A DNA stretch of 24,294 nucleotides from Bacteroidales bacterium (lineage in GTDB: Bacteria > Bacteroidota > Bacteroidia > Bacteroidales > UBA932). The translations under genes were made by a program, and so were the position numbers. The stretch covers positions 1 through 24,294 of the forward strand of contig JAFYZZ010000076.1 in assembly GCA_017548445.1 (NCBI GenBank), given 5' to 3'. Positions within the stretch are counted from its first letter, which is position 1, and every line of letters starts with the position of its first letter. The notes under the pieces were generated by a model. It did no database searches and had not been told where the DNA came from. It saw only the letters and a list, made by a program, of their open reading frames with translations. Of this stretch, positions 2,459 to 10,051 are shown piece by piece.

Positions 2459-4830
<2,372 letters not shown>

Positions 4831-4838
4831 AGAAAAAA

Positions 4839-4974
4839 GGAAAAAGGGGAGAGAATTTGAATCCGCAAAATTGCGGATCACGGGACGGTACGCGGTCCGG
4901 CCGCCTGCAAGACACATTATGGACCGCGCTGCGTCCTCCGCAGGCGCAGCCTTCCGGCTGCATCCCCTTTTTCC
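4839..4974 (-). ncRNA. Candidate RT-associated structured RNA, closed by a 12-bp inverted repeat
   Basis: A perfect 12-base inverted repeat (4839-4850 with 4963-4974) encloses 112 bases containing three hairpins. At 4946-4961 a 6-bp stem carries a GGAA (GNRA) loop in the RT sense. At 4883-4936 an 8-bp stem (4891-4898/4921-4928) and a 5-bp stem (4883-4887/4932-4936) are in one register across a 3x3 internal loop, with a 22-base apical loop. At 4861-4878 there is an 8-base palindromic stem. Apical-loop bases 4902-4908 can pair with 4940-4946, a possible pseudoknot. The GNRA loop appears only on the minus strand, which supports the assigned orientation. The segment ends eight bases before the RT start and shows no promoter of its own, so it is probably processed from the RT transcript. 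It could instead be a cis-regulatory leader. Confidence 0.55.
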
Positions 4975-4984
4975 GGAAAAACGC

Positions 4985-5509
4985 TTATCCTACGAATCTG
5001 TTGATTCGCGAAATGACATACGCCCTTTCGTTGGGCATCTGCGTATAGAAGTTGATGTAGGGAAGCCCCATCTTCTTGGCGAACATCCTGGCTATCAGGT
5101 ATTTGACATTGCTGTCGTGGCTGTGGCCGCTTCCCAGCATCACCACGCCCTTCGGCGCGCCGCCCTCGTAAAGTACAAAAGTGTAGGGCGCGCCCCATTC
5201 GGCCCGGTACACCTGGGTGGGACGGGATTTGTAGAGCTTGAATTCATCGGCCACATCGCCCACGAGTTCCGTCACGGGAACGCCCTGGCGGACGGCGAAG
5301 CGGGGGAACTCCGTGGCCAGGATTTCGGCGAAATAGGCTTTCCATTCCGTGTCGGTGCGGAATACCTCGGGTTCACTGGGGGTATATGCGTCCTGCCGCT
5401 GGGCGGGCTTGGGCCCGGTCGCGGATTCGGTGGAGGTCTTGATGGCGTCCTTCACCTGCGAGAGGACGCTCTCGGCCACCGATCCCAAAATGCTTTTAAA
5501 CAGTCCCAT
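4985..5509 (-). CDS. Conserved-looking protein of unknown function upstream of the RT
   Basis: A 174-residue protein I do not recognise. It begins with an amphipathic helix (MGLFKSILGSVAESVLSQVK) but no signal peptide, followed by a Pro/Gln/Ser-rich linker to about residue 50. The compact C-terminal domain (about 55-174) alternates strands and helices: EWKAYFAEILATEFP, APYTFVLYEGG, PKGVVMLGSG and NVKYLIARMFAKKMGLPYIN. That pattern could fit a nuclease-like or nucleotide-binding alpha/beta fold, but no catalytic set can be pointed to. It is first in the minus-strand unit leading into the structured segment and the RT, and it has a promoter at 5537-5568. Whether it works with the RT is unknown. 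Confidence 0.7.
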   Translation of the reverse strand: MGLFKSILGSVAESVLSQVKDAIKTSTESATGPKPAQRQDAYTPSEPEVFRTDTEWKAYFAEILATEFPRFAVRQGVPVTELVGDVADEFKLYKSRPTQVYRAEWGAPYTFVLYEGGAPKGVVMLGSGHSHDSNVKYLIARMFAKKMGLPYINFYTQMPNERAYVISRINRFVG

Positions 5510-5536
5510 AAGTCATTATGTTATTAGTTGGAGGGA

Positions 5537-5568
5537 TAAAAATACAATGTTTCTTCCAATAAACCAAA
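5537..5568 (-). promoter_or_regulatory. Promoter of the unknown protein-RT-esterase unit
   Basis: On the minus strand TTTG (5568-5565) is followed after 20 bases by TATTTTTA (5544-5537), seven of eight matches to TAnnTTTG. It ends 27 bases before the ATG at 5509. No other -7-like element was seen between 5509 and 4830, so this is the only visible promoter for the RT. Confidence 0.5.
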
Positions 5569-5585
5569 GTATCCGGCAAAATCCT

Positions 5586-5593
5586 TATCTTTG
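5586..5593 (+). promoter_or_regulatory. sigma-ABfr -7 element of the 5611-6129 gene
   Basis: TATCTTTG matches TAnnTTTG exactly and ends 17 bases before the ATG at 5611. The -33 box is not clear. Confidence 0.6.
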
Positions 5594-5610
5594 AAGAAAA
5601 AGAACTGCAG

Positions 5611-6129
5611 ATGAAAACGGTCCTGGCTTTTACCCTGTTTTTCCCGTTCCTCGGCCTGTTTGGCGGTTTCGGCGTCAAGGCGACGGGCAGGAACGAGAAA
5701 CCCAAAGGCGAACTCGAGTCATATGAGTACAGTTACAGCACGATGGCGCGTTTCCCGAATCTTTATCATCAGGTCCGGCGGGACAGCACCGGGATGCTTT
5801 GTATCTATTTCTCCAAGGACCTCGAGGATGACATCTGCGTCATCCAGGCGCCGGACGACGCCCTGGAGCACATTGCCGGCATCGTCCGGGATTGCAAGAT
5901 GCATAAACTGCGCAGTTCCTACCGTCCGAGGATGGAGGTGCTGGACGGATATGCCTGGCACTGTTTCCTGAAATTTACCGACGGCTACATCTCTTCGGGC
6001 GGCTCCAATGCGGGCGCCCAGGGAAAGCCGGGCGGTGGCGTCCGTGCGATCAACGACTATATCATATCGCTGATCGACGCGTCCACGGAAGCCGACATCA
6101 TCCGGCACGAGAGCCACCTAGACCGGTAG
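5611..6129 (+). CDS. Small secreted protein of unknown function
   Basis: A 172-residue protein with an N-terminal hydrophobic signal segment (MKTVLAFTLFFPFLGLFGGFG) and no lipobox cysteine, so it is probably exported to the periplasm. The mature part (YEYSYSTMARFPNLYHQVRR, then a GMLCIYFSKD strand and later a Gly-rich GGSNAGAQGKPGGG loop) looks like a single small alpha/beta domain. I cannot assign it to a family. Three cysteines lie in the mature part. The last 12 bases overlap the 3' end of the convergent aminopeptidase gene, and no terminator is visible between the two. Confidence 0.75.
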   Translation: MKTVLAFTLFFPFLGLFGGFGVKATGRNEKPKGELESYEYSYSTMARFPNLYHQVRRDSTGMLCIYFSKDLEDDICVIQAPDDALEHIAGIVRDCKMHKLRSSYRPRMEVLDGYAWHCFLKFTDGYISSGGSNAGAQGKPGGGVRAINDYIISLIDASTEADIIRHESHLDR

Positions 6130-7872
6130 CGTCTTCTCCCGGAGCCACGCGGCCACTTCTTTCGGAAGCTGCGGGGAAAGGGTCCGGTACACCCGTTCAT
6201 TGTAGGCGTTGAGCCATTCAATCTCGCTGCGGTCCAGCAGCGGGAGTTCCAGCGCGTCCGTGTCGAAGTGGCAGAGCGTGAGCGGCTCGAAAGCGAGCCA
6301 GCGGCCGAAGTCGTTCTGCCCCGCCTCGACGACCAGCAGCAGGTTCTCGTGGCGTACGCCGTGCCTGCCTTCCCGGTAGATGCCCGGCTCGTCGGAAATA
6401 ACCATTCCCGGTTTCAGGGGCGTAGGGTTGAGGTTCTGCCGCACGTCCTGCGGCCCTTCGTGTACGCCGAGCAGCCAGCCCACGCCGTGTCCGGTGCCGT
6501 GGCCGAAGTTGCGTTTGCTGCGCCAGAGCGGCTCGCGGGCGAGCGCGTCCAGGCGGCAGCCGGGCGTCCCTTCCGGGAAGACGGCCATCGCCAGGTCGAT
6601 GTGCCCCTTGAGCACCAGGGTATAGTCCTCGCGCTCCAGTGCGCTGCAGCGGCCGAATGGCACCGTACGCGTGATGTCCGTGGTGCCGCAGTTGTACTGC
6701 CCGCCCGAGTCGCACAGGTATAGCCCGCCGTCGCGGATGGCCGGGGCGTAGGCGTGCGGGGTGACGTAATGGGGCAGGGCGGCGCCGGGGCCGTAGGCCG
6801 AGATGGTCTCGAAGCTGTCGCCGAGGTATCCGGGGAGGTCGGCGCGCAGCTGGCCCAGTTTCACGGCGGCGTCCCATTCGCTGATCTCGCGTCCTGCGTC
6901 CAGCGAGCGTTCCAGCCAGTACAGGAAGCGCTCCATCGCCAGGCCGTCACGCAGGTGCGCCTCGCGCATTCCGGCGACCTCCTTCGCGTTCTTGACCGCC
7001 TTGCGCGCACCCACGGGACTGGTGCCCTCCTCGAGGGGAATGCCGGCGGAGACCAGGGTGTTATACAGCTGGAAGTTGAGGGTGGCGGCGTCCACGAAGA
7101 GCCGTCCGCCGAATTCGGATGCGAGATAGTCGATATCGTCGTAGGGGAGCATCCGCACGCCGTCGGCTTCCAGGATGCTGAAGGTGGCTCCTGTCTGCGG
7201 GTCTTCCACGGCCTCTTTGACCACGTACCAGCAGATATCCTCCCGAGTGATCAGCAGATAGCTGATGACCAGCGGGTTGTATTCTATGTCGGAGGCGCGG
7301 ACGTTGAGCGTCCAGGCAATCTCGTCCAGGGCTGTGAGCAGGATGCCGTCGCAGTCCTGCTCTTGCAGGAACGAACGGAGCCACGCGATCTTCTCGCGGC
7401 GGCTCTCGCCCGGGTCCACCGTATAGACGGGCGTCTGCGGCACGGCGGGGCGGTCCGTCCAGAACCGGCCTAGCAGGTCGGGGACGCTGATGACCGTGCC
7501 GGGCAGCGACTGGGCGAAGTCGGCCCCCACGCACAGCCCGTCCACGGCGATAAGACCCTCGCCGCCGAACTGGAGCTCCAGCCATTCGGGAATCAGGACC
7601 TGTTCCGGCACGCGCGTCTTGTGCAGGACGATGCCGGTGCCGGCGAGCTGCTGCTCCGCCTGGATAAAATACCGCGTGTCCGTCCACAGGCCCGCGTGGT
7701 CCAGGGTTACCACGATATCGCCCGCCTCGCCGGTAAAGCCGGATAGCCATTCCACCTGTTTCCAGCGTTCGGCCGGGTATTCGCTGCTATGGGGGTCGGA
7801 GCCCGTGATGACCACGGCGTCCCATCCTTTGGCGCGCATCAGGGCGCGCAGCATTTCGATTCTTTCAGACAT
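6118..7872 (-). CDS. X-Pro aminopeptidase (M24B, aminopeptidase P type)
   Basis: A 584-residue cytoplasmic metallopeptidase that removes N-terminal residues before proline. It has the long three-domain layout of eukaryote-like aminopeptidase P: two creatinase-like N-terminal domains (about 1-150 and 155-300) and a pita-bread catalytic domain (about 305-530), followed by a C-terminal tail. The metal ligands are visible: Asp388 (CDSG), Asp399 (TTDITRT), His462 (HGTGHGVG), Glu495 (DEPGIY) and Glu509 (RHENLL); His458 and His471 (VHEGP) match the catalytic histidines. No signal peptide is present. It is transcribed divergently from dusB, with a -7 element at 7919-7912 and a REP-like hairpin in its short leader. 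Confidence 0.95.
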   Translation of the reverse strand: MSERIEMLRALMRAKGWDAVVITGSDPHSSEYPAERWKQVEWLSGFTGEAGDIVVTLDHAGLWTDTRYFIQAEQQLAGTGIVLHKTRVPEQVLIPEWLELQFGGEGLIAVDGLCVGADFAQSLPGTVISVPDLLGRFWTDRPAVPQTPVYTVDPGESRREKIAWLRSFLQEQDCDGILLTALDEIAWTLNVRASDIEYNPLVISYLLITREDICWYVVKEAVEDPQTGATFSILEADGVRMLPYDDIDYLASEFGGRLFVDAATLNFQLYNTLVSAGIPLEEGTSPVGARKAVKNAKEVAGMREAHLRDGLAMERFLYWLERSLDAGREISEWDAAVKLGQLRADLPGYLGDSFETISAYGPGAALPHYVTPHAYAPAIRDGGLYLCDSGGQYNCGTTDITRTVPFGRCSALEREDYTLVLKGHIDLAMAVFPEGTPGCRLDALAREPLWRSKRNFGHGTGHGVGWLLGVHEGPQDVRQNLNPTPLKPGMVISDEPGIYREGRHGVRHENLLLVVEAGQNDFGRWLAFEPLTLCHFDTDALELPLLDRSEIEWLNAYNERVYRTLSPQLPKEVAAWLREKTLPV

Positions 7873-7881
7873 ACATTCATC

Positions 7882-7902
7882 ATTCCGGGCCTGACCCGGA
7901 AT
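7882..7902. repeat. REP-like hairpin, copy A, in the aminopeptidase leader
   Basis: ATTCCGGG (7882-7889) pairs with CCCGGAAT (7895-7902) over a five-base loop. Core and flanks (TCAT before, CT after) match the copies at 11363 and 15177. It lies between the -7 element at 7912-7919 and the ATG at 7872, so it would be the leader of the aminopeptidase mRNA. Confidence 0.65.
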
Positions 7903-7911
7903 CTCTCTTTA

Positions 7912-7919
7912 CAAATATA
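7912..7919 (-). promoter_or_regulatory. -7 element of the aminopeptidase gene
   Basis: On the minus strand this reads TATATTTG, an exact TAnnTTTG. It gives a leader of about 30 bases occupied mostly by the REP-like hairpin. It lies only five bases from the opposing dusB -7 element. Confidence 0.5.
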
Positions 7920-7924
7920 ATTAT

Positions 7925-7932
7925 TATTTTTG
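7925..7932 (+). promoter_or_regulatory. -7 element of dusB-lpxK, almost at the start codon
   Basis: TATTTTTG fits TAnnTTTG and ends six bases before the ATG at 7939. With the usual start about seven bases after this element, transcription would begin at or next to the start codon, giving a leaderless mRNA. The in-frame TTG at 7930 would lie inside the promoter and is therefore unlikely as the start. Confidence 0.55.
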
Positions 7933-7938
7933 TACGAT

Positions 7939-8934
7939 ATGAAGATCGGGAACCTGGACCTGGGGGAGCGCCCGCTGCTGCTTGCACCGATGGAGGACGT
8001 CACGGACGTTTCCTTCCGCATCCTCTGCCGCGAGCAGGGGGCCGATATGGTCTATACCGAGTTCGTCAACTCCGACGGACTGGTGCGCGACGTTCCCAAG
8101 ACCATCGCCAAGATGCACACCCTCGAAGAGGAGGCGCCCGTGGGCATCCAGATCTACGGGCAGCATCCGGATGCGATGGTGGATGCCGCCCGGATGGCCG
8201 AAAAAGCCGCGGAACTGGCCGGCGGCCACGGGGCCGACCTCATCGACATCAACTTCGGCTGCCCGGTGAGCAAGATTGCCGGGCGGGGTGCCGGCTCGGG
8301 AATGATGCGCGAGCCGGACAAGATGGTGGCCATCACCAAGGCGGTGGTGGAGGCGGTGAACAAGCCCGTCACGGTGAAGACCCGCCTGGGCTGGGACGAT
8401 AACTCCAGGATCATCGTCGAATTGGCGGAACGCCTGCAGGACGTCGGCATCCGGGCCATCACAATCCACGGCCGGACGCGCTGCCAGCTGTACAAAGGCT
8501 CGGCGGACTGGACGCTGATCGGCGCCGTCAAGGCCAACCCCAGGATGCACATCCCCGTCATCGGCAACGGCGACGTAACCGACGGTCCTTCGGCCCGCGA
8601 GGCCTTCGAACGCTGGGGCGTGGACGGGGTGATGATCGGCCGCGCCACCTTCGGCCGCCCGTGGATCTTCCGGGAGATCAAGTACTTCCTGGAGCACGGC
8701 GAGCCTATGCCGGAGCTGTCCGTCGCCGAACGGGTGGCCCTGGCGCGGCGGCACCTCGCCCTCTCCCTGCAGTACAAGGGCGAACCGCGCGGCATCTACG
8801 AGATGCGCCGCCACCTGTCCTGTTATTTCAAGGGACTGCCCGACTTCAAGCAGACCCGTATGCGGATGGTCACCACCCTGGACGTGGCCGAACTGCACGA
8901 TATCCTCGACTCAATTGAAACGCGATATGATTGA
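7939..8934 (+). CDS. dusB: tRNA-dihydrouridine synthase, DusB-like
   Basis: A 331-residue FMN enzyme that reduces uridine to dihydrouridine in the tRNA D-loop using NADPH. It is a TIM barrel with family motifs in order: LLLAPMEDVTD (residues 13-23), DINFGCPV with the catalytic Cys108, GRGAGSGMM (116-123), VTVKTRLGWD (144-153), IHGRTRCQLYKG (177-188), and the phosphate-binding IGNGD (208-212) and IGRATFGRPW (233-242). A helical RNA-binding domain follows. The ATG at 7939 was chosen because the -7 element ends just before it. The stop overlaps the lpxK start by eight bases, so the two are probably translationally coupled. Confidence 0.93.
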   Translation: MKIGNLDLGERPLLLAPMEDVTDVSFRILCREQGADMVYTEFVNSDGLVRDVPKTIAKMHTLEEEAPVGIQIYGQHPDAMVDAARMAEKAAELAGGHGADLIDINFGCPVSKIAGRGAGSGMMREPDKMVAITKAVVEAVNKPVTVKTRLGWDDNSRIIVELAERLQDVGIRAITIHGRTRCQLYKGSADWTLIGAVKANPRMHIPVIGNGDVTDGPSAREAFERWGVDGVMIGRATFGRPWIFREIKYFLEHGEPMPELSVAERVALARRHLALSLQYKGEPRGIYEMRRHLSCYFKGLPDFKQTRMRMVTTLDVAELHDILDSIETRYD

Positions 8935-10051
8935 CAAGGTTCTCCTCTACCCCTACTATCTGTCCCTGAAGCTGCGCGACCGCCGCTACAGCCGGCCCGG
9001 CCGCAAGCTGGAATACGCCGAAGTGCCTACCCTGTGCGTAGGCAACGTGACTGCGGGCGGCACCGGCAAGACTCCGCACGTCGAGATGGTCCTGCGCCTG
9101 CTCCGGGAGCATCCCGACTGGAGCGGGAAGTCGCTTGCGATGCTTTCGCGCGGGTACAAGCGCGACAGCACGGGCTTCCAGCAGGTCGTGGCCACCGGCA
9201 GCGCGACGATGTACGGCGACGAGCCGCTGCAGGTCAAGAAGAAGTTCCCGGAGGTGACGGTGGTGGTGGACTCGGACCGCGTGGAGGCCTGCGACCTGCT
9301 GGCGCATCCGGAGAAGATGAAGAACCGCAAGGTGGCGAAGAAATGCTGGGACCGCGAGTTCCCGAAGGCGGACTACATCGTGCTGGACGACGCCTTCCAG
9401 TACCGCAAGCTCAAGGCGAACAAGAATATCGTGCTGGTGGACTGGAATCGTCCCGTCCAGAAAGACCACCTGCTGCCGCTGGGCCGCCTGCGCGACCTCC
9501 CGGAGCGTATTTTCGACGCCGACGCGCTCATCGTGACCAAGTGCCCTTCCGAGATGGACGAACTGGAGAAAGCGAAATTCGTCGAGGAACTGGGTTTCAC
9601 GGACTATCTGCCCTCCGAATACGAGGCCACCAACCCCAAGGGAAGCCGCCAGCTCATCTTTTTCACCACGGTCCGTTACGGGCAGGTGACGGGCGTGTAC
9701 TCCACGGCCGAGCCGCGCTATACGTATGCGAAGAAGGCCATCGTGCTCACCGGCATCGCCTCCGACGGGCCGATGTGCAGCTACCTGAGCGACTTCTACA
9801 AGATCATCCGTCATTTCCGTTTCCCGGACCACCACCGCTTCGCGTGGAAGGACATCAACAAAATACAGGCAGCCGTGGACCAGACGCCCACGGCCGCGAT
9901 CATTACTACTGAAAAGGATGCCCAGCGCCTGCTGGACTATGTCGGGATGCCCGAAAGCCTGATGCAGCGGCTCTTCTACGTCCCCATCACGGTGGATTTC
10001 CTCTCCGACGACGAGCGCGAACGCTTCACGGAGTTCGTGGCAAGCGTGTAG
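8927..10051 (+). CDS. lpxK: Tetraacyldisaccharide 4'-kinase (lipid A 4'-kinase)
   Basis: A 374-residue inner-membrane-associated P-loop kinase that phosphorylates the 4' position of the lipid A precursor disaccharide. It shows the unusual LpxK Walker A (GNVTAGGTGKTPH, residues 39-51), SRGYKRDSTG (74-83), GDEPLQ (97-102) and the DDxxQ motif as DDAFQY (154-159), where many homologues have H after Q. An amphipathic N-terminus (MIDKVLLYPYYLSLKLRDRR) suits membrane attachment. The ATG at 8927 gives the standard LpxK start; it lies within the end of dusB. Its presence implies a lipid A outer membrane. It ends immediately against the stop of the convergent frr gene. Confidence 0.93.
   Translation: MIDKVLLYPYYLSLKLRDRRYSRPGRKLEYAEVPTLCVGNVTAGGTGKTPHVEMVLRLLREHPDWSGKSLAMLSRGYKRDSTGFQQVVATGSATMYGDEPLQVKKKFPEVTVVVDSDRVEACDLLAHPEKMKNRKVAKKCWDREFPKADYIVLDDAFQYRKLKANKNIVLVDWNRPVQKDHLLPLGRLRDLPERIFDADALIVTKCPSEMDELEKAKFVEELGFTDYLPSEYEATNPKGSRQLIFFTTVRYGQVTGVYSTAEPRYTYAKKAIVLTGIASDGPMCSYLSDFYKIIRHFRFPDHHRFAWKDINKIQAAVDQTPTAAIITTEKDAQRLLDYVGMPESLMQRLFYVPITVDFLSDDERERFTEFVASV

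Follow-up and report, generated by a model that had tools for sequence, protein, structure and literature searches.

The window, by which we mean the whole stretch of 24,294 nucleotides analysed here, carries on its minus strand, in this order, the gene of a 174-residue protein designated up174 (5509-4985), a structured segment (4974-4839) that begins after 10 nt, and a reverse transcriptase (RT) gene (4830-3601) that begins after a further 8 nt. The first base of the RT ATG is 4830, and the 8-nt distance from the end of the RNA is the one given in an earlier note on this DNA. A U-rich tract lies downstream of the stem that closes the RNA. A scan of 4700-5700 for promoters of the sigma-70 type, the only type that it covered, found none between up174 and the RNA. 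The three components are as follows.

3601..4830, minus strand: UG26 reverse transcriptase, 409 aa (PADLOC RT_UG26, 515.8 bits, E 1.6e-155; Pfam RVT_1; Y-S-D-D catalytic motif)
4839..4974, minus strand: RT-5 RNA, the whole structured unit with its closing stem (cmscan core 4848-4949; own model; z -6.4)
4985..5509, minus strand: up174 partner protein, 174 aa (PADLOC RTasCOG2852-like, 27 bits; predicted PD-(D/E)XK/VSR-like fold without canonical active site)

The system is adjoined at 6118-10051 by genes for aminopeptidase P (M24), a tRNA-dihydrouridine synthase-like protein and an LpxK-like protein, the last two named by eye. This block is common to the close relatives L001, L003 and L004 (L numbers denote loci, G numbers genomes).

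The RT matches RT_UG26 over positions 3-396 of the 398 in that model, and the next RT model reaches 107 bits; UG26 was assigned as the best model in the PADLOC library, which has no stated cut-off. It is followed by the general RT model, Drt9, UG27, UG17 (DRT10) and UG4, and then by Cas1_IIIb and Drt3a. In the fold search with the RT model, group II intron RTs stood above DRT9 (rank 7, E 5.5e-14), and DRT2 came at rank 16. One of our sets of RT sequences comprised 26 members, the RT of the window and 25 of the 120 homologues listed from a total of 2897.

The minus strand of 4848-4949 matches the Rfam family RF03026, 'RT-5 RNA', from the first to the last position of the model (1-104 of 104) with 94.2 bits in cmscan, above the gathering score of 45.7 bits. 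The Rfam output states no function for it. The Rfam model describes the core only, whereas the RNA of the window has in addition a closing stem and the hairpin P1, as well as a pseudoknot that is absent from the printed structure line of the family. Our own full-length model, R1, gives 150 bits to 4835-4976 of the minus strand, the window being among the sequences from which the model was built. Both parts, the RNA as RT-5 in Rfam and the RT as UG26 in PADLOC, were already catalogued, which does not support the view of the earlier note that this is a new system of RT and non-coding RNA (ncRNA). We found no paper on the function of UG26, on COG2852 proteins with RTs or on RT-5, and no printed report of a link between RT-5 and UG26; the literature searched did not include the UG/Abi survey and the RT-n motif paper.

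The minus strand folds with a minimum free energy of -72.5 kcal/mol (z -6.4), and none of 200 shuffled sequences was as stable. The plus strand folds too (z -5.2), so that the strand is not settled from the single sequence; it is settled by the relatives, in favour of the minus strand, and their antisense matches to our own model reach at most 25.5 bits. In the order of transcription, the parts of the RNA are the following.

4963..4974, minus strand: closing stem, 5' arm, 12 bp (covariation in 78 and 87 rows)
4946..4961, minus strand: P1 hairpin, 6 bp, with a GGAA loop here (86.2% of cells paired)
4940..4945, minus strand: pseudoknot, 5' strand, GCCUGC (99.8% of cells paired)
4921..4936, minus strand: P3, 5' strand, 4 bp and 7 bp across an internal loop (repeat search and covariation)
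4903..4908, minus strand: pseudoknot, 3' strand, GCAGGC, within the P4 loop (pairs with 4940..4945)
4900..4913, minus strand: P4, 3 bp with an 8-nt loop (99.6% of cells paired, 3 of 3 pairs changed on both sides)
4883..4898, minus strand: P3, 3' strand (repeat search and covariation)
4861..4878, minus strand: P5 hairpin (96.7% of cells paired, 7 of 7 pairs changed on both sides)
4851..4860, minus strand: unpaired linker that joins P5 to the closing stem, candidate template (UCAAA at 4860-4856, 98-100% conserved)
4839..4850, minus strand: closing stem, 3' arm (covariation in 78 and 87 rows)

The features that the earlier note had read from the window were confirmed at the places it gave. The repeat search returned the perfect 12-nt inverted repeat (4839-4850 and 4963-4974, 112 nt between the arms), the 13-bp hairpin with its 3x3 internal loop (16-nt arms 4883-4898 and 4921-4936, 81% complementary, 13 of 16 positions) and the short palindromic hairpin (4861-4868 and 4871-4878). 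The hairpin with a GNRA cap in the sense of the RT is there as well, 4946-4951 pairing with 4956-4961 around a GGAA loop on the minus strand, although in relatives the loop varies and the innermost pair of P1 mostly fails. The pairing proposed between 4902-4908 and 4940-4946, which on the minus strand joins the loop to an upstream stretch, is present, and the pseudoknot strands within it (4903-4908 and 4940-4945) covary in relatives.

Comparative evidence was drawn from a scan of genome contigs that yielded 520 stretches encoding relatives of the RT, the best 80 of which were used. Their records belong to Bacteroidales, Prevotella and related groups and are mostly metagenome-assembled. Many come from ruminants (goat, sheep, yak, buffalo, deer, reindeer), and others bear RUG or RUI labels, which we take to stand for rumen. 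A complete RNA precedes the RT at 77 of these 80 loci (76 by pattern, L075 by eye and model), and at the remaining three, L035, L041 and L065, its 3' part is present and the rest is cut off by the contig end. RT homology begins at a median of 10 nt after the RNA. At L025, L038, L039, L043, L046, L048, L073 and L111 a repetitive stretch resembling GACACGAGACACGGGAC was seen by eye between RNA and RT.

A MAFFT alignment of 78 sequences, the window and the 77 loci, has 94.7% of cells paired and changes on both sides in 26 of 45 pairs, against at most 51.7% and 16 in slid controls. From these 78 sequences we built our own model, which leaves out the pseudoknot, and with it an alignment of 87 rows from 86 sources (the window, 75 of the 80 loci found by RT and 10 later ones), omitting L012, L079, the three loci truncated by contig ends and further loci retrieved afterwards. 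For the closing stem, 95.6% of cells are paired and 5 of 12 pairs are changed on both sides in the 78-row alignment; in the 87 rows, an alignment fitted to the stem, the values are 98.0% and 11 of 12. The pseudoknot, which was no part of the model behind the 87 rows, has both-side changes in 3 of 6 pairs in 78 rows and in 5 of 6 in 87 rows (99.8% of cells paired). On the RT tree, where counts cover 16 chosen pairs, at least 4 changes from one Watson-Crick pair to another are needed for the pseudoknot (three pairs that vary) and at least 19 for the closing stem (the four pairs examined). What is borne out of the earlier note, by the covariation of closing stem, hairpins and pseudoknot in relatives, is a structured RNA dedicated to this non-retron RT.

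The association extends to divergent relatives. When the RNA was used as the starting point, it turned up at 11 places in 10 genomes, one of which the RT search had also yielded. An RT adjoins it at 10 of these places, and the eleventh is an additional copy of the RNA within one of these loci. In a further sample an RT was found in 6 of 6 genomes, in one case 3 kb away and with only its first 169 residues inside the contig piece retrieved. Genomes found with both queries contributed L117 and L116, whose RTs show 54% and 41% identity, and searches with the RNA alone contributed G836 (41%), L110, L113 and L114 (36-38%) and L115 (33%). The RTs of L115 and L116 still belong to UG26 in PADLOC (362.8 and 522.4 bits). 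With our own model the divergent RNAs have E-values of at most 2.9e-9, followed by an antisense match at 6.5e-4 (these E-values are rough). The L115 RNA scores 41.2 bits with the Rfam model, below its cut-off, and 55.9 bits with our own, and its pseudoknot strands read GCUUUC/GAAAGC as against GCCUGC/GCAGGC in the window. Judged by the alignments, the closing stem and the pseudoknot, both outside the Rfam model, covary down to an RT identity of 33%.

Among the best 80 of the 520 RT relatives, the third component, up174, precedes the RNA at all 76 loci with enough upstream sequence; the other four have at most 313 nt upstream, and at one of them, L066, the last residues of the protein are visible by eye. 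Between the up174 stop and the RNA there are 0-33 nt (median 7, n=76). L115 is a divergent relative in which RNA and RT occur without a partner ORF. Structure modelling predicts for up174 a PD-(D/E)XK/VSR-like (COG2852/VSR-like) fold; sequence searches against solved structures gave no match. Endonucleases of the COG2852/VSR-like type carry a D and a (D/E)-x-K in their central strands, whereas up174 does not: across 60 partner proteins (the window, 38 of 120 listed homologues and 21 loci), strands 109-115 and 118-126 hold no conserved acidic residue and no E-x-K. Residues E104 and D88, which are conserved elsewhere in the domain, may be part of another active site. PADLOC did not recognize the diverged partners in L110, L113 and L114 or two ORFs in G836. 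At the divergent UG26 locus of G836 (L095, 2735-6353) there are two RT-5 RNAs, and immediately before each lies an ORF whose product has a partner-like domain, weak in the first ORF and present in two copies in the second. By eye, both ORFs contain stretches like zinc ribbons, and hydrophobic helices occur in the second.

In 199 genomes of the family of G001, the same 7 carry UG26 (above 360 bits, a line set after the scores were seen) and RT-5, and 47 further genomes have weaker RT matches (at most 127 bits) and no RT-5. RT-5 was found in 10 of 399 genomes of the family of G006 and in 6 of 393 of the order of G010 (5 above the cut-off), and among 395 genomes of the phylum only in the starting genome. 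All 8 genomes in which copies were counted have one; G836 has two RNAs. Occurrence in few of the genomes sampled points to an accessory system. No other neighbour gene is conserved to a comparable extent, the largest further cluster covering 11 of 81 loci. Among 114 of 146 immediate neighbours (one protein per side, 100-900 aa), each of the 25 PADLOC families listed, out of 34, matches a single member, and the 25 Pfam families listed, out of 137, are mainly metabolic or housekeeping, a weak context for defence. Carriage by phages or plasmids was considered and rejected on scans that need close relatives: the plasmid collection contained no close relative (all 644 matching records below 60% identity), nor did the phage collection (11 records, all below 60%), and viral contigs gave only 2 relatives at 29-31% identity and no match to the exact RNA-core pattern. 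Against this rejection, the available part of one paper (PMC10504277) lists UG26-classed RTs among those of cold-seep viruses, with no study of them in that part.

What the RNA does for the RT has to be weighed against several alternatives. The earlier note called the RNA retron-like. In a retron-like mode the closing stem would correspond to a1/a2, a 2'-OH would prime the RT and P5 would be copied into msDNA. Like a retron RNA, this one is closed by a long stem upstream of the RT, and the linker directly 5' of the 3' arm would be the first template. Retron RTs, however, carry the motifs NAxxH and VTG, and retron priming uses an unpaired G just after a1. VTG occurs in 0 and NAxxH in 3 of 81 RTs, and retrons first appear at rank 25 of the fold search. 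The junction base before P1 is mostly U (88%), and the position after it, a G in 85 rows, is paired in all 86 rows with letters (first P1 pair GC in 82, GU in 3, AU in 1, unpaired in 0, gap in 1 of 87), so that no free priming G is seen. The retron mode was rejected on the missing motifs and the paired G, and we regard it as very improbable. Even less credit can be given to the view that the RNA regulates the RT gene in cis, as a leader, attenuator or riboswitch; the earlier note had cautioned that a regulatory leader would look similar. The 8-nt spacing in the window and the U-rich tract after the stem would suit this view, but at 13 of 77 loci RT homology begins more than 30 nt after the RNA, and in L112 two complete TrkA-/TrkH-like ORFs (named by eye) stand between RNA and RT. 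There is another gene in L110, together with a 12-bp hairpin running into a U tract, and in L116 a hairpin followed by U5; both terminator-like hairpins rest on folds, a simple terminator scan listing neither. Genes or terminator-like hairpins thus separate RNA and RT in three relatives, which hardly fits an RT leader, and the candidate was dismissed on these separations and the gap lengths. The intervening ORF of L110 (3564-4040), which follows the RNA and its terminator-like hairpin, looks lipoprotein-like by eye.

Two further alternatives were weighed. The RNA might belong functionally to the nuclease-fold protein, as an inhibitor or guide in the manner of an RNA antitoxin, with the RT as a third party. 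In G836 the two RNA copies each stand directly behind a partner-like ORF, though the domain is weak in the first, and in L112 it is the partner that the RNA adjoins, the RT being 3 kb distant; on the other side, L115 keeps RNA and RT without the partner ORF, and the partner lacks the usual catalytic residues. We consider this quite unlikely. Somewhat less remote, though still unlikely, is that the RNA is not copied but acts on the RT, or on its complex with the partner, as a structural scaffold or activator, DNA being made untemplated or on a protein template. Most conservation in the RNA is structural, and PMC13213688 describes RTs of DRT systems that have no RNA template; against it, the longest unpaired run that is nearly invariant occupies the place of the DRT10 template, just 3' of a stable hairpin.

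The reading that we prefer is a UG26 system of the Class 2 DRT (defence-associated reverse transcriptase) kind, in which the RT-5 RNA would be the scaffold and probably also the template. One feature of that class, a conserved ncRNA encoded in cis with an RT of the UG group, is present: a 136-nt RNA with closing stem, P1, P3, P4, P5 and pseudoknot has been kept with the UG26 RT through deep divergence, usually in the order partner protein, RNA, RT. No other nearly invariant stretch of unpaired bases is as long as the UCAAA after P5 (98-100% conserved in 87 rows), and the linker has 10-12 unpaired nucleotides in all 78 rows (strings of 12-14 include two letters of P5). The Class 2 DRT systems studied so far copy a portion of their own ncRNA into tandem repeats (PMC12632851; PMC13174585). 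The DRT10 template, which shows an A-B-A' pattern, comes right after a stable hairpin (PMC12632851). By analogy with such anti-virus systems, the RNA is probably what the RT copies or builds on. In the linker, a UUC before AAA recurs as a UUC before CCC with at least 3 matching letters in 58 of 78 rows, as against 18.9 in shuffled sequences, none of 2000 shuffles being as high. The second UUC overlaps the start of the conserved UCCCC stem, so the A-B-A' signal may have another cause. The window has only 2 matching letters at that place and its own second UUC earlier in the linker (4855-4853), and L116 has lost the CAAA motif. With these three points in mind, we hold it very probable that RT-5 is the partner RNA of the RT and fairly probable that it serves as its template; a role in defence is favoured by a little, and repeated copying is a tentative idea that we rather doubt.

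On the preferred reading, the RNA would be cut from, or would end, the transcript of the partner protein; we place it there because the median gap of 7 nt leaves little room for a promoter. It would then fold and bind the RT, the pseudoknotted core of P1, P3 and P4 acting as a scaffold and P5 setting the 5' edge of the template. The RT would copy the conserved linker 3' of P5 (UCAAA..., 4860-4851), perhaps repeatedly by slipping between the two copies of UUC, as DRT10 does with its own repeat. The partner, of nuclease fold and without the usual catalytic residues, would bind the RNA, the cDNA or the RT and not cut, and the likely use of the whole would be defence against phages. At its boldest, and with rather low confidence on our part, this would be a telomerase-like writer of repeats, in which the linker (UUCAAA and the second UUC) is copied over and over, the product is held by the nuclease-fold protein without a cutting site, and some hosts (G836) provide two RNAs and a multi-domain partner for one RT. 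Repeated copying would yield a short tandem repeat: in the window, for example, this would be TTTGAA, and in the commonest relatives TGATTTTGAA.

A close parallel is DRT10 (UG17), which consists of an RT, an ncRNA and a SLATT protein (PMC12632851). It likewise has three parts with the ncRNA encoded beside the genes, and its RNA, too, carries a short direct repeat in the unpaired stretch that comes after a stable hairpin (PMC12632851). The partner differs, being SLATT in DRT10 and of nuclease-like fold here, as does the place of the RNA, which lies upstream of the SLATT gene in DRT10 but between partner and RT here. The template loop of DRT10 is poorly conserved, whereas UCAAA is nearly invariant in the present system, itself known from sequence. 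DRT9, DRT3a and DRT2 are also systems of RT and ncRNA, and DRT9 structures align best among the DRTs; the DRT2 RNA is called pseudoknotted, like ours, in PMC12039810. They belong to RT families other than UG26, and neither the poly-U template of DRT9 nor the ACACAC of DRT3 occurs in any of the 78 linkers.

Similar pairs may be more widespread. RT-17 RNA (RF03020) lies directly upstream of RTs at L129 (2008-2092), L131 (1922-2006), L130 (2014-2099) and L133 (3020-3100, overlapping the start of the ORF as called), and the best specific PADLOC model of these RTs is UG17; RT-n motifs in general may be ncRNAs of UG-like RTs. L123 (2508-3770) encodes a full UG27 RT (739.7 bits), from one of the PADLOC families closest to UG26. 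No Rfam RNA was found beside it, which makes it a place to seek an undescribed ncRNA.

RT-5 is now tied to UG26 RTs and has gained a closing stem, P1, a pseudoknot, a third component and a candidate template, additions that turn RT-5/UG26 into a system that can be tested experimentally. Telomerase has been argued to descend from DRT systems (PMC12632851). If the UG26 system were indeed a writer of repeats, the DRT systems would gain one more DNA product and a partner protein of a new type.
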